Source: Erythrobacter cryptus DSM 12079 (GTDB lineage: Bacteria > Pseudomonadota > Alphaproteobacteria > Sphingomonadales > Sphingomonadaceae). From it: a DNA stretch of 64,000 bases. The translations under genes were made by a program, and so were the position numbers. Each line of letters opens with the position of its first letter. Within the stretch, counting starts at the first letter, position 1. This document shows positions 23,007 through 28,053 of the stretch, piece by piece. The DNA lies in assembly GCF_000422985.1 (NCBI RefSeq), contig NZ_AUHC01000001.1:496001-560000 (forward strand), read 5' to 3'. The notes under the pieces were generated by a model that was not told the origin of the DNA, ran no database searches, and saw nothing but the letters and a program-made list of their open reading frames with translations.

Positions 23007-24785
23007 TCAGCCTTGCCCAAGGGGGCACGCCCCCAAAGGATGCGCGCCCATAGGCGGGTTTGGGGCGGGGGTCAAGGGCGCGTCGGCCTGCCGCTCCCCG
23101 TCATGGCGCGATCGGCTGGCGGCAGGTGCCCCCGTTCGGCACGAATGGGAAGGTGGCAGACGCGGGAGGCGTCTGGCGCAAGGGTCACAGCAAACGTCCC
23201 TGCTTGCCCGCATCCGTATCCTCGCGCCGCGCCTGTTTGCCCACGGCCACATCGACCAGCGGGATGTTGGGCCGCTTGCCCTGGAACATCTCGGCGAGCG
23301 TGAGGATTTGCAGGCGCGGATATTTGCGCCCCGTCGTGGGGTTTTCCCAGAGGCCCACGGCGGCGGCATCGCGCTCCATCGGCGGGTCGGGGCCTGCGCG
23401 GTGATGAGCACGCCGATGGGCGCGCGCTCGCGCTCGATCACCTGCGCGAGGCGGCCGACATCCTTCACCCCCACGCCCCCGCCCTTGACCTCGACAATCG
23501 CGCGCTCGGTCTTCTTGCCATCGGGCTTGAAGTAGATGATGCCATCGATCCCGCCATCGGCGCCCTTGCGCCCGCCCTTCCACGGCTGGGCATCGACCAC
23601 CGACAAGGCCCAGAGTTCAAACTGGTGCTTGTCGCGCGCGGCAAGATCGAGCGCGGAGCCAAGGTGTTGCGGGCGTCCGATCACCTCGAAGGTAAGCCCG
23701 GGGAAGGCCTGCCGCATCCGCTTTTCGATCAGGCCGATGGCCAGGTGGGTGACATCAATCCCGATCCATTGCCGCCCCAGTTTCTGCGCGGCGTGCACCG
23801 CGGTGCCGCAGCCGCAGAAGGGATCGAGCACCACATCGCCCTCGTTGGACGAGGCGGAAATGATGCGCTCGAGCAGCGCCAGCGGCTTTTGGGTGGGGTA
23901 GCCGAGGCGTTCTTGGGCTTGGGAGTTGAGGGGCGGGATGTCAGTCCAAACGCTTGTGATCGCCATACCCTTTTGCTCATCAAGATACCTCTTGAAGCGA
24001 GGCACCTTGCCAGGTGCACTCTGGACGATAAGGCCATCGTCGTAAGCCTTCTGCATTCTTTCTTTCGTCCAACGCCAAACTTTTGTTACGCCAAGAAACT
24101 CATAGGTCAGATTGGGCCTATTTTTGTTTGGGTTCAGAAGGTTATCTAGCTGATAGCGACGGCCAGTTTCTGGCTCAATTTGCGAATAGTGGCTTTCGAC
24201 ATAGCTCTCGTCGTATTCGCCGTATTGCGGATGCCATGCAGCACCTTCGCTCTTTCGATAGAAGAAGATTACGTCATGGCTGGACGGGAACCGCGTGAAA
24301 GCGTGGCCTTTCGGCGCCGTCCGCTCCCAAGCTATTTCGTTAACGAAACAGCGCGCCCCAAACACCCCATCCAGCAGCAGCTTGAGATAATGGCTCGCGG
24401 TAGGGTCGCAGTGCAGATAGAGGCTGCCCGTGGGCTTCAACACGCGGTGCAGCTCGATCAGCCGCACCGCCATCATGGCCAGATAGGCCATCATGTCATT
24501 GTCGCCGAGGAAGCGGCGCATCGCGTTGAGCAGTTCAAAGGCCTGCGTACGCCCGCTTTTCATCACATCGTCAAAGGCTTGCTCGGCGGATGCGTTCCAG
24601 TGCCAGGTGTCCTCGAACGCCTCGATCTGCGCGTCGCTGTCCGCCCCTTCGGGCGATTTGAACAGGATGTTGTAATTGGCGTTCGAGTTGAACGGCGGAT
24701 CGAGATAGACAAGATCGACGCTCTCATCGGCGATGTGCTCGCGCAGCACGGCAAGATTGTCACCGAAATAGAGCTTGTTGGGCAT
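23007..24785 (-). CDS. DNA methyltransferase fused to Mrr-like nuclease domain, probable frameshift
   Basis: As it reads, 592 residues from MPNKLYFGDNLAVLREHIA. Motif IV LDPPF is at about 28-32 and the SAM motif DPFCGCGTA at about 321-329, the beta-class order of N6-adenine/N4-cytosine methyltransferases. After residue 385 comes a restriction-endonuclease-like domain: GADGGIDG (409-416) and VEVKGG (431-436), matching the D...ExK pattern of Mrr-type nucleases. After APT467 the frame becomes arginine-rich and unlike a protein. The expected continuation (PMERDAAAVGLWEN..., YPRLQILTLAEMF, ending at 23185) lies in another frame, so one base is probably missing near 23379-23386. The DNA for residues 150-282 is low in GC. 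It may be an orphan methylase or a type II-like fusion. Confidence 0.8.
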   Translation of the reverse strand: MPNKLYFGDNLAVLREHIADESVDLVYLDPPFNSNANYNILFKSPEGADSDAQIEAFEDTWHWNASAEQAFDDVMKSGRTQAFELLNAMRRFLGDNDMMAYLAMMAVRLIELHRVLKPTGSLYLHCDPTASHYLKLLLDGVFGARCFVNEIAWERTAPKGHAFTRFPSSHDVIFFYRKSEGAAWHPQYGEYDESYVESHYSQIEPETGRRYQLDNLLNPNKNRPNLTYEFLGVTKVWRWTKERMQKAYDDGLIVQSAPGKVPRFKRYLDEQKGMAITSVWTDIPPLNSQAQERLGYPTQKPLALLERIISASSNEGDVVLDPFCGCGTAVHAAQKLGRQWIGIDVTHLAIGLIEKRMRQAFPGLTFEVIGRPQHLGSALDLAARDKHQFELWALSVVDAQPWKGGRKGADGGIDGIIYFKPDGKKTERAIVEVKGGGVGVKDVGRLAQVIERERAPIGVLITAQAPTRRWSAMPPPWASGKTPRRGANIRACKSSRSPRCSRASGPTSRWSMWPWANRRGARIRMRASRDVCCDPCARRLPRLPPSHSCRTGAPAASRSRHDGERQADAPLTPAPNPPMGAHPLGACPLGQG

Positions 24786-24879
24786 GGGCCAGCCTCGCCT
24801 GTTGCTTTCCTGCAAAGAGCAGCACACAGGCGCCCCGGTCAAGCCCGGGGAGACGAAAAGCGAAGGCGAGGCTGGCCCA
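24785..24879 (-). repeat. 16-bp inverted repeat covering the methyltransferase ribosome binding site
   Basis: TGGGCCAGCCTCGCCT (24785-24800) and its exact complement AGGCGAGGCTGGCCCA (24864-24879) flank 63 bases. In mRNA the downstream arm contains the GCGAGG Shine-Dalgarno sequence and the first base of the ATG, so folding would hide the start. The loop also contains the palindrome at 24833-24850. Confidence 0.75.
24833..24850. repeat. Palindromic intergenic repeat, second copy type
   Basis: CCCCGG, six bases, CCGGGG (CCCCGGTCAAGCCCGGGG), followed by AGACG. It is similar in style to the repeat at 22849-22867. It lies in the loop of the larger 16-bp inverted repeat upstream of the methyltransferase. 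Confidence 0.5.
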
Positions 24880-24985
24880 GCGGCGCCCCGCCCTCCATGG
24901 GACGCGCCTTCCCCCTTTCCTACCGCCCCCGCCCCCTGCCACCCTTTGCCTCGTGGACCTGCCGCCCCCGCTCGAGCGCCCGTCG

Positions 24986-25489
24986 ATGCCCAAGTGCAAC
25001 AAGCGTAAGGTGGCGCGGCAGGCGACTTCCGAGGTGGCCTTTGAATTCGCGCCCGCGGTGATTGGTGCAGACGACCCGCTGCTCGACTTCACCCCCTATC
25101 GCCACAAGGCCCTGCGGCGCAATTCGATCACGCCCGATCTCCAGCGCGCCTTCATCGCCCGGCTGGCCGAGACGGGGATCGTCAAATCCGCCGCGGCCCA
25201 TATCGGGCGCAGCCTCGAGGCGCTCTACAAGCTGCGCCACCAGCCCGGCGCGCTGGCCCTATGGGGTGATGTTTTCGACCTGGTTCGGCTGCTATGCCGT
25301 CGTGGGTCTGAGCGCGCCTGGCTGACATCGGCCAAGCGGCGCGAGTCGGCCTTGGGGCCAAATGGGAGCGATTCGCCCGAGACCAACCGAATGCGCAATC
25401 GCGCGGCCAGCCGCGCCGCCTGCGCGGCGGCTTGCGCATCATCTCCCCAGCGCCCCACGGATCCGCAACCGTGCGGCGCCAAAGCCTGA
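24986..25489 (+). pseudogene. Truncated helix-turn-helix protein gene
   Basis: The frame from MPKCNKRKVARQAT codes for 167 residues. Residues about 32-85 (FTPYRHKALRRNSITPDLQRAF, IARLAETGIVKSAAAHIGRSLEALYKLRHQPGA, in part) match the start of a family, common in sphingomonads as I recall it, with a helix-turn-helix-like segment (TGIVKSAAAHIGRS). In that family a FxxAWxxAL helix normally follows. Here the sequence turns into LALWGDVFDLVRLLCRR and then a low-quality Arg/Ala/Ser tail to the stop. I infer a gene broken by deletion or rearrangement. It is divergent from the methyltransferase. If intact instead, it would be a small unknown DNA-binding protein. Confidence 0.5.
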
Positions 25490-25500
25490 AGCGAGGCGAC

Positions 25501-25530
25501 AAAAAAGCCCCGGGGAGCGCCCGGGGCTTT
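25501..25530. terminator. Bidirectional intrinsic terminator
   Basis: AGCCCCGGG/CCCGGGGCT form a 9-bp stem with a 5-base loop (25506-25528). On the minus strand it is followed by TTTTTTG (25500-25506) and on the plus strand by TTTCTG. It would end the short minus-strand unit at 25553-25591 and also stop transcription coming from the plus-strand fragment at 24986-25489. Confidence 0.85.
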
Positions 25531-25552
25531 CTGTCGATCTCAATCAGCTATC

Positions 25553-25591
25553 TCAGCGCGAGCCGAGCAGCCAAAGAAAATAGTTCCACAC
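25553..25591 (-). CDS. Candidate 12-codon hydrophobic peptide
   Basis: Read from GTG the peptide is MWNYFLWLLGSR, then TGA. A near-perfect Shine-Dalgarno AAAGGAG lies seven bases upstream. The peptide is almost wholly aromatic and aliphatic with a basic end, like the first turn of a tiny membrane protein; the MW-F-W-LG pattern recalls the N-terminus of CydX, but it is far shorter. A second frame, starting at the ATG directly after the AAAGGAG, gives MRRVELFSLAARLALR but has no spacing from the Shine-Dalgarno. The unit lies between two CtrA-type boxes and a strong terminator. It could also be a non-coding RNA of about 90 bases. I know of no described gene of this kind. Confidence 0.4.
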   Translation of the reverse strand: MWNYFLWLLGSR

Positions 25592-25602
25592 GGCGCATCT
25601 CC

Positions 25603-25658
25603 TTTAGCGTTTCCGCAAGACACGCGTTAACAGAAAATTAACCTTAATCAACCGTTAA
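25603..25658 (-). promoter_or_regulatory. Two tandem CtrA-type boxes with a -10-like element
   Basis: On the minus strand TTAA-CGGTTGA-TTAA (25658-25644) and TTAA-TTTTCTG-TTAAC (25641-25626) are both perfect TTAA-N7-TTAA sites. The first overlaps the stop codon of the CHASE2-EAL gene. Seventeen bases after the second site is GCTAAA (25608-25603), which resembles the GCTANA part of the Caulobacter -10. In Caulobacter CtrA binds TTAA-N7-TTAAC, often over the -35. Such AT-rich sequence stands out sharply in this GC-rich DNA. Confidence 0.7.
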
Positions 25659-28053
25659 TTGCAGCCCGCCCTCCGCCCATCATCGCGGTCAGCTCGGACA
25701 TGGTGATCGCGCGCGAGAACAGATAGCCCTGCCCAAGGTCGCAGCCCATCGCCCGCAGCATCGCCGCAACGGCCTGGCTCTCGACCCCTTCGGCCACCAC
25801 CACCTTTCCGAGCGCATGGGCGATCTCGATGGTGGCGCGCACCACCGCCCGGCTTTCTTCCGAGCTCACCATGTGCTGGACGAAATGCTTGTCGATCTTG
25901 AGTTCGGAACTCGGCAGCTTCTCGATATATTCGAGGTTTGACTGGCCAGTGCCGAAATCGTCGATCGACAGCCCGATCCCGCGCTGCTTGAGCGCAGCGA
26001 TCTGCGGGGCGATGCGGTCATCCTCGAGCTTGGCGGTCTCGGTCAGCTCGAGCACCAGGTTGCCAGGGGGAAAATCGTGCCGCCCGAGCAGCGTCATCAT
26101 GTCGAACAGCAGCTGGGTGTCGCTCAGGCTCTTGGCCGACATGTTGATCGCCAGCTTGAAATTGGGATCGAGCGCGATGGCGCGCTTGCCCTCGATCAGC
26201 GCCTTTTCCATCACCAGCAAGGTCAGCTCGTTGATACGCTCGCTCGCTTCGGCGGCCAGCACCAAATCCTGCGGATTGATCGGCTCGCTTCCCTGCGGCT
26301 GCCAGCGGATCAGCGTTTCGGCCCCGACGATCCGGCCTGTGGCCAGATCGATCTTGGGCTGATAGGCGACCCCGATGGCGCGCTCGCGCAGGCCCTTCTC
26401 GAGCATGCGCAGCAGTTCGATACGGTGGTTGCGCGCCTCGAGATGGGCTGCATCATTGATCAGCAGGCGCGCCCCGCGCGCGGCGGCTTCCTCGGCCGCC
26501 TGCATCGCCTTCTTGATCCTGAGGCCAAGCGGCAAGTCGCTGTTGGTGTCGATCCCCAGCGCCGGGGCGCCGCTGGCCGATTGCCAATCATGCCCGATCG
26601 CGGTCTTGAGCATCAAGGCAAGGCCATCGGCGTGGCGTTCAAGCTCGAGCCGATCCATGCGCGGCGCCAACCAGACCAGCAGGTCGCGCTCGAAGGCCAC
26701 GTCGCCGGCCTCGCCCGGCCCCCTGACGAAGGCGATCAGACTGTTGACGAAGTCGCCGATCTCGCGCGCCGAAAGTTCCTCGGACATGGCGGTGAGATTG
26801 GCGATCTTGAGCGCATAAACATCGACCCGGGGATTGGGCCGATCCGAACTGATCGCCTGCGGCGAGACGGCATCGACATCGCGGTTGAAATACTTGCGGT
26901 TGAGCCGGGCAAAGCCGAGGCCGGCGGCGCCGAGCGTCAGCAGCGCCGGCATAATGTCGAGATTGAAGCCGAACTCATCTAACACGAGCGGAAGCAGAAG
27001 AAGCGCGGCGATGCACAGCCCCACCACCCGGCGCGAGCGGCCGCGGATGACGGCGATCGTCAGCACCGCGAGGCCCGCCGCCAGCAAGGCCGGGACCCAG
27101 CCCAGATCGACCGGGGTGCCGCGCCTCAGCGTATGCGCGCCCATGATATGAAAATAGGCGCCCGGCAGCACAGAATCCGCTCCGAAAGGCATCACAAAGA
27201 CATCGGTGGAGGCGAAATAGGCCTCGCCGATGATCACCTTCTTGCCCTCGAGCGCACCCCTCGCAATCTTGCCCTCGAGCACGTCAAGGTAACTCAGGCG
27301 CGGGATCGAACGCGGATCGAAAGCATAATCAGGCCGGTAGCGCAGGGCTGGCCCGGCGTAGTCAGCCATCTCGGCCGAAAGCGAGCGATAGGCCTTTTCG
27401 CGCAACTCCGCCCGCGTATCGAGTGTGATCGACAGGCCAAAGGGGCTGCCCATGCCCAACATGCTTGCAAGGCCCGCTCGCGAACGGAAATGCGGCAGCG
27501 GCAAGATTTCCGGCCCTATCTGAGCGCCCAATCGCGTCTCCGGGCTGAAGCCCAGCCACACCTTGCCCCGGTGGCGCGCCAGGGTCTCGGCAAAGCGCGC
27601 ATCGGCCTCGGGGGTTTCGGGATCGGCATGGGCCCGGTCGAACAGGATCTTGGCGGCGCCCGCTGCGGCCAGCCGGTCGATCACCTCGCTGTCCTGGATG
27701 CGCGAGGGGATCCGGCCGCCAAAGGCCGCGATGGTGCGATCATCGATGGCGATGAAGACAATGTCCTGCGGCGCCGGACGCAGGCGCAGCTGCGCACGGG
27801 CAGCGCGGTAGAGATCCTCGGCGGGCAGCGGAAGATCGATCGCGCCTGCGACCACCCCGAACAGGATCGCCAGCAGCGCCGCCATGATCCGCTTGCCACG
27901 CAGCAGATCGCCCTCCTTGCGCCGCCCCAGCTCGCGCCTGAGATCGGACAGGCCATCATCGCCAAGACCGCGCGCGCGCCGCAGTGCCTTGGTGAGCGAT
28001 GTAAAGATTGGGATCATCCGGCCCGGCGCCTTCCTCGGGATTAACCATAGCAA
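25648..28053 (-). CDS. CHASE2-EAL cyclic-di-GMP protein
   Basis: 801 residues. One membrane helix (about 57-74) leads to a periplasmic CHASE2 sensor (about 80-310). Three more helices follow (about 319-336, 344-358, 365-382). A region of about 410-540 sits where a GGDEF domain usually is but shows no GGDEF motif. The EAL domain is 552-795: catalytic positions E579 (motif reads ETL, not EAL), N637, E669, D698-D699, K719, E755 and Q775 are all present, so phosphodiesterase activity on cyclic di-GMP is plausible. A second start at codon 13 (28017) is possible. Its 3' end overlaps a CtrA-type box. The input signal is unknown. Confidence 0.88.
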   Translation of the reverse strand: MLWLIPRKAPGRMIPIFTSLTKALRRARGLGDDGLSDLRRELGRRKEGDLLRGKRIMAALLAILFGVVAGAIDLPLPAEDLYRAARAQLRLRPAPQDIVFIAIDDRTIAAFGGRIPSRIQDSEVIDRLAAAGAAKILFDRAHADPETPEADARFAETLARHRGKVWLGFSPETRLGAQIGPEILPLPHFRSRAGLASMLGMGSPFGLSITLDTRAELREKAYRSLSAEMADYAGPALRYRPDYAFDPRSIPRLSYLDVLEGKIARGALEGKKVIIGEAYFASTDVFVMPFGADSVLPGAYFHIMGAHTLRRGTPVDLGWVPALLAAGLAVLTIAVIRGRSRRVVGLCIAALLLLPLVLDEFGFNLDIMPALLTLGAAGLGFARLNRKYFNRDVDAVSPQAISSDRPNPRVDVYALKIANLTAMSEELSAREIGDFVNSLIAFVRGPGEAGDVAFERDLLVWLAPRMDRLELERHADGLALMLKTAIGHDWQSASGAPALGIDTNSDLPLGLRIKKAMQAAEEAAARGARLLINDAAHLEARNHRIELLRMLEKGLRERAIGVAYQPKIDLATGRIVGAETLIRWQPQGSEPINPQDLVLAAEASERINELTLLVMEKALIEGKRAIALDPNFKLAINMSAKSLSDTQLLFDMMTLLGRHDFPPGNLVLELTETAKLEDDRIAPQIAALKQRGIGLSIDDFGTGQSNLEYIEKLPSSELKIDKHFVQHMVSSEESRAVVRATIEIAHALGKVVVAEGVESQAVAAMLRAMGCDLGQGYLFSRAITMSELTAMMGGGRAAING

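Follow-up and report, generated by a model that had tools for sequence, protein, structure and literature searches.

The window analyzed here, the whole 64,000-nt stretch from Erythrobacter cryptus DSM 12079 with a GC content of 67%, carries on its minus strand a gene for a CHASE2-EAL protein and, directly behind it, a microprotein gene of only 12 codons (Table 1). Between 25658 and 25626, this strand reads TTAACGGTTGATTAAGGTTAATTTTCTGTTAAC, which holds two perfect TTAA-N7-TTAA sites with 2 bases between them. The first-pass annotation had described this tandem pair, an AAAGGAG element, a GTG-initiated ORF, and a terminator, here a GC-rich stem-loop ending in six T, and all of these were present as claimed. 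The unit does not stand alone, however, as it adjoins the CHASE2-EAL gene; both this pairing and the usually longer forms of the microprotein in other genera had been missed. Elsewhere in the window, a single ORF at 23007-24842 (minus strand) combines DNA N6/N4-methylase and Mrr-like nuclease domains (Pfam PF01555, PF04471/PF22722) and adjoins two short ORFs that by eye resemble ribosomal proteins S12 and S7.

Table 1. Features of the CHASE2-EAL/microprotein locus in window coordinates
Feature	Position	Strand	Basis
CHASE2-EAL gene, 801-aa ORF, likely start ATG at 28017	25648-28053	minus	Pfam CHASE2 and EAL (PF00563)
First TTAA-N7-TTAA site	25644-25658	minus	Aligned in relatives; overlaps with the -35-like element and with the stop codon of the EAL gene
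Second TTAA-N7-TTAA site	25627-25641	minus	Aligned in relatives; final TTAA lies over the -10-like element
Predicted promoter, TTGATT (25651-25646), N16 spacer, TAACGC (25629-25624)	25624-25651	minus	Inferred from the alignment of relatives and from other genera
Leader hairpin, including some of the Shine-Dalgarno AGGAG (25603-25599)	25593-25625	minus	Folding and covariation
12-codon microprotein ORF, GTG start, MWNYFLWLLGSR	25553-25591	minus	Open in 51/51 units; in-frame pN/pS
Intrinsic terminator, AAAGCCCCGGG-CGCTC-CCCGGGGCTTT, six T	25501-25530	minus	Folding and alignment of relatives

The tandem sites resemble those bound by the cell-cycle regulator CtrA, and the TTAA-N7-TTAA motif has been described as functional and conserved throughout the class (PMC9437464). 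No perfect site arose when the window was shuffled 100 times with its dinucleotide content preserved, vs. the two observed, and the window held no further site at one mismatch. The complete genome (2,954,426 bases) contained four perfect sites, two of them the tandem pair, vs. five matches to a reversed control pattern. There is therefore no genome-wide excess of the motif, and the tandem pair is a local feature; the earlier claim that it lies far beyond chance stands locally but not across the genome. A CtrA orthologue is encoded in this genome (L118), scoring 418.5 bits against NCBIfam NF045991 (cut-off 350), and its best PDB sequence match is an entry titled Cell cycle response regulator CtrA (residues 1-117). 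Three TTAAC half-sites lie upstream of this gene (L118:2160-2300) and would suit autoregulation. In Sphingomonas melonis, ctrA is dispensable (PMC8116508).

To follow the locus beyond this genome, we used BLASTN with a 186-base query against 61 genomes, 11 of which matched, mostly at the boxes and with the source genome included. Thus, 10 of the 60 other genomes matched, all of them from the 36 congeneric genomes in the set, and on reading, these loci shared one order: boxes, a hairpin with AGGAG, an ORF opening ATG-TGG, and a terminator. Within the genus (Erythrobacter/Porphyrobacter), a covariance model built from 12 sequences (R1) reached further, with 50 matches spread over 48 of 114 genomes; in the bacterial family, it matched 4 of 298 genomes, in two genera. 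Both runs used stricter filters, which lost weak matches. An initial, wider run had also returned 12 weak second matches (14–19 bits) at the same loci, which we excluded from all counts. Named records carrying the same gene were largely from Erythrobacter and Porphyrobacter, including E. colymbi, E. sanguineus, and E. tepidarius. Boxes, ORF, hairpin, and terminator are thus conserved in the genus.

We assembled a set of 51 units, 50 from the genus and one (G183) from another genus, and the ORF was open in every one of them, at 12–16 codons. Fifty of these ORFs were called by script, and that of L042, owing to its altered Shine-Dalgarno sequence, was identified by eye. Across 40 distinct 12-codon ORFs, Trp2 and Gly10 were invariant (40/40) and Arg12 occurred in 36, with a consensus of about MWGWFSHLFGSR. 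The pN/pS ratio was 0.66 in frame vs. 1.09 and 1.25 out of frame; related sequences entered all of these counts as if independent. By this comparison, the ORF is coding and under purifying selection.

The leader between promoter and ORF is predicted to fold into a hairpin, which in all 12 sequences folded included some or all of AGGAG; its outer pairs vary with the position of the transcript start. Covariation across the 51 units agreed with this fold: 65 cells showed double changes vs. 19.3 in shuffles, 79.8% of cells were paired vs. 62.4% in shuffles, and the covariation score was 0.465 vs. 0.191 shuffled and 0.05–0.12 when the structure was slid. All three measures exceeded every one of 500 shuffles and all slid versions, with the proviso that the structure was named by hand and the alignment fitted to it, so the count leans towards that structure. 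That every pair showed a double change (9/9) was unremarkable in itself, as shuffles averaged 7.5 such pairs and 75 of 500 reached 9. RNAalifold on a MAFFT alignment missed the leader hairpin, presumably because some rows were shifted by one column. Mean base pairing of the Shine-Dalgarno sequence was 0.80 in the genus set vs. 0.56 in the control; in other genera, it was close to the control (0.73 vs. 0.66), and we therefore claim the Shine-Dalgarno hairpin for the genus only. In two loci (L002 and L005), the hairpin loop contains GGTTAACC, an additional CtrA-like half-site.

The microprotein gene was tightly coupled to one kind of neighbor. In the 114 genomes, compared by tblastn and by eye, all 50 model matches lay no more than about 30 bases from the 3' end of a CHASE2-EAL gene. 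The paired homologues include three with only 41% identity to the protein in the window (G013:C1, G025:C7, and G070:C1), two of which share their genome with a close copy. Of 52 tblastn matches above 300 bits in the genus, the two without a model match (G114:C32 and G086:C57) are fragments that end short of the protein's 3' end. Among weaker CHASE2-EAL paralogues in the genus, 18 of 20 sampled flanks were without a comparable ORF by eye; the other two carried MRRSIWDWIFS (L105) and MWNFWRWMFG (L106), neither of which was matched in the wider model run. In 42 of 42 aligned microprotein-bearing homologues, E566, N624, E656, D685, D686, K706, E742, and Q762 were kept (position 1 being residue 14 of the ORF), which we take to be metal- or substrate-binding and catalytic residues. 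Because these residues are intact, the partner, a putative c-di-GMP phosphodiesterase, is probably an active one.

The pairing extended well outside the genus. With the G183 protein as tblastn query, 138 of 296 genomes of the bacterial family were matched, and we read 87 flanks outside the genus, comprising 56 of the 63 listed places at or above 321.5 bits and 31 that scored lower. Behind the nearer EAL homologues, 54 of 56 flanks held a small ORF with a Trp-rich core (the exceptions being L209 and L212); behind the weaker ones, 7 of 31 did, leaving 24 without. Seven of these 61 ORFs were missed by the script pattern and accepted by eye (L164, L171, L173, L176, L178, L196, and L216), while chance ORFs from the micro-ORF script, for example in L171, L222, and L249, were excluded by eye. 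The encoded peptides, such as MKNQKSRPVRGFWDWLFGGSGGAAGGKG, MAKRTKQPVRGFWDWLLGGGWSN, and MKKRTQHQGRGFWEWLLGSGWK, span 11–41 residues around a GFWDWLFGG-like core, and their termini have diverged so strongly that only this Trp-rich core is kept. Eleven close pairs of these ORFs, which are not independent, gave a pooled pN/pS of 0.30, and the pair L191/L203 differed by seven synonymous changes and no other. Seven representatives (20–41 aa) matched no Pfam or NCBIfam family at E up to 1. In L212, an ORF that by eye resembles an insertion-sequence transposase occupies the slot expected for the micro-ORF.

These comparisons bear on what kind of product the unit makes. The first-pass annotation had proposed a CtrA-controlled small RNA or microprotein, and we considered whether the RNA itself could be the regulator, with the ORF incidental or secondary. 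The predicted RNA would suit such a role in being short, structured, and terminated, with a covarying hairpin. However, selection acts in frame on the amino acids, the peptide core is kept between genera while the RNA looks different by eye, and Rfam gave no match at gathering score in the locus (six matches at E up to 5 in window positions 24900-26200). We therefore rejected a pure small RNA, which is unsupported because amino acids are conserved over nucleotides, and we regard a regulatory RNA with an incidental or secondary ORF as very unlikely. The part of the proposal that survives is a CtrA-type microprotein unit in a genome that has ctrA.

The terminator was found in 50 of 51 units of the genus set and in 54 of 61 units of other genera, the latter vs. 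1–5 in five shuffled sets. TrpL and TnaC are leader peptides whose genes likewise consist of a short Trp-bearing ORF and then a terminator, and the microprotein gene shares this layout. Ribosome movement on the Trp-rich ORF could in that case decide whether the terminator forms and so control the next gene, and the Trp codons, the hairpin, and the terminator directly after the ORF are what such an attenuator would need. Yet unlike TrpL and TnaC, the microprotein has no conserved gene beyond its terminator: the ORFs there differed by eye among the 12 loci viewed, with only L002 and L007 sharing one, and in some loci a long ORF lies on the opposite strand. In other genera, moreover, the ORF reaches 20–41 codons with conserved amino acids. 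On these two grounds, we rejected the leader-peptide reading, which strikes us as highly improbable. Beyond the terminator in L002, L005, L007, L009, and L162, we observed GCGAATC-NN-GGTTAA, a GANTC site with a CtrA-like half-site; this pattern had no match among 21 near genomes, and the lead was dropped.

Aligned leaders, read by eye, suggest a promoter at the EAL gene's 3' end in which the second TTAA box lies over the -35 element and the fourth over the -10 element, with transcription predicted to start near 25620-25616. The -10-like TAACGC of the window is weak, the start codon of its microprotein is GTG, and a simple promoter/terminator scan of the locus reported neither element. The first-pass annotation had instead taken GCTAAA as the -10, but that element falls inside the predicted leader hairpin (GC paired, TAAA in an internal bulge) and is not conserved as a -10. 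A leaderless start, which it had also considered, is unsupported. The conserved promoter-like elements overlap the boxes themselves. Leaders of other genera repeat this arrangement in altered form, many of them reading TTAA-N7-nTAACC with TTG immediately ahead of nTAACC. Among the 61 leaders, TTG-n-TAAC occurred in 27 (shuffled mean 0.69), TTAACC in 23 (2.55 shuffled), a -35/-10-like pair in 21 (3.78 shuffled), and a perfect TTAA-N7-TTAA in only 7 (0.30 in shuffles). A sizeable share of the units outside the genus thus have half-sites or imperfect sites only. Within the genus, one locus (L012) likewise has a single half-site.

Two of the four TTAA boxes coincide with a plausible -35 and -10, and full sites are not in genomic excess, so the boxes could be bound by a factor other than CtrA or could merely be AT-rich promoter elements. 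Against this, at least one TTAA-N7-TTAA site was found in 44 of 51 units of the genus set vs. 0.38 in shuffles, 16 of the 61 leaders from other genera contained TTAA-N7-nTAACC vs. 0.05 in shuffles, and a CtrA orthologue is encoded in the genome. We therefore consider control by something other than CtrA unlikely and favor CtrA as the factor that would bind here. CtrA-controlled promoters of Caulobacter and other Alphaproteobacteria (PMC9437464) show the same arrangement, with full sites and TTAACC half-sites over -35 and -10 in genomes with ctrA. The present locus differs in that tandem full sites are predicted to serve a gene of only 12 codons and overlie the stop codon of the gene upstream.

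As two further checks on the family, we searched 296 genomes of the order with a profile of 28 microproteins (A6) and mapped the peptide onto a tree of EAL proteins. At E ≤ 1, 135 of the 296 genomes had a profile match, many surely by chance, but all of the best 30 matches lay 73–269 nt behind an EAL gene, and 15 of those 30 were in genomes whose flanks had not been read before. Across the class, 11 of 289 genomes matched at E ≤ 0.02, one of them in the family of the window and the others weak. In 8 of those other 10 genomes, the best match fell within an open frame of more than 300 codons; because matches in the class lie mostly in such long frames, we claim the microprotein within the family only. 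The tree comprised 55 hand-picked EAL proteins (42 with the peptide, 13 without, and one row partial), and peptide presence required 2 changes on it, vs. 11.8 with shuffled labels (0 of 500 as low). Twelve of the 13 peptide-less proteins fell on one side of a branch, among them the second CHASE2-EAL protein of the genome analyzed here (G000:C11:398-2524; L305, L091). Because peptide-bearing proteins flank this clade on both sides, a single loss is as possible as separate gains.

The pair also occurs on a plasmid of Qipengyuania sp. HL-TH1, where the microprotein is MWRWWNELFGSR (one record opened of five plasmid records matched). There, the CHASE2-EAL gene is followed at L293:3798-3960 by TTAACCAT, a hairpin-like leader, the MWRWWNELFGSR ORF, and a terminator. 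The gene table of this plasmid omits the ORF, and the table is incomplete according to its makers.

Taken on sequence evidence, these patterns suggest a microprotein that is timed by CtrA and tunes the adjoining CHASE2-EAL phosphodiesterase, a proposal to which we would give roughly an even chance. By sequence comparison, the 12-codon ORF of the window is among the shortest members of a family (11–41 aa; core roughly R-G-F-W-D-W-L-F-G-G) whose genes lie immediately 3' of certain CHASE2-EAL subfamilies in this bacterial family. Its transcription would begin at a promoter of its own where the EAL gene ends, and since CtrA-type TTAA/TTAACC sites lie over -35 and -10, phosphorylated CtrA should set the timing of its synthesis. 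In the genus, the hairpin over the ribosome-binding site may damp or condition translation of a short transcript that the terminator would end. The Trp-rich peptide could then dock on the neighboring membrane phosphodiesterase and tune its activity or placement, so that c-di-GMP would fall at the appropriate stage of the cell cycle or lifestyle and at no other. Counting against such tuning, linkage can persist by descent without contact, and distant CHASE2-EAL genes are mostly without the ORF.

A microprotein that is equally real and CtrA-timed might instead act elsewhere, on the membrane, a polar complex, another regulator, or c-di-GMP itself, and be linked to its neighbor through a shared pathway or descent. 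Its own promoter-like elements and terminator would fit such independence, as would the strongly diverged termini around the one conserved core. The EAL protein also offers no clear docking signature: three alignment columns separating proteins with and without the peptide were conserved in the former and six in the latter, too few for a docking site to be named. Still, the presence of the peptide tracks the EAL tree rather than the genome, the second CHASE2-EAL gene of the same genome being without it, and the pair is retained in the plasmid copy and in the second copies of two genomes. We consider a target elsewhere rather unlikely, though a serious competitor to tuning of the adjoining phosphodiesterase.

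Small-protein partners such as CydX and KdpF are encoded beside the enzyme or transporter that they modulate. Like them, the microprotein is tiny and aromatic or hydrophobic, and its gene adjoins, and is conserved with, that of a larger protein. It differs in having its own CtrA-type promoter and in its putative partner, a predicted c-di-GMP phosphodiesterase. A peptide of 12 residues is also too short to cross a membrane as an ordinary transmembrane segment. The YcgZ-YmgABC small proteins of E. coli, another possible parallel, are longer than the microprotein. They are controlled through the BLUF-EAL protein BluF (PMC3509220), and so likewise link small proteins to an EAL protein in a biofilm or lifestyle pathway. 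The EAL domain of BluF is degenerate (PMC3509220), whereas the EAL residues of the family studied here are intact. The link in E. coli, moreover, is a transcriptional one. Among open-licence papers, we recognized no description of the CHASE2-EAL/microprotein pair from titles and abstract openings. A small protein beside its likely partner is an arrangement of a known kind, but both this family and its connection with CtrA and c-di-GMP seem to be undescribed.

Genes this small fall under the usual annotation limits, and comparative support for them over many genera is rare. The microprotein described here is linked to specific enzymes of a major bacterial second messenger and, through its CtrA-type promoter pattern, to the principal regulator of the cell cycle in the class. 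More broadly, CtrA-timed microproteins of as few as ~12 residues may serve as dedicated phosphodiesterase modulators or c-di-GMP-binding peptides, forming a two-gene cassette that is also plasmid-borne, a generalization that we hold tentatively and at somewhat less than even odds. If the peptide does modulate the enzyme, the pair would be a compact link from CtrA to c-di-GMP, wiring the CtrA pathway directly to the turnover of this messenger.
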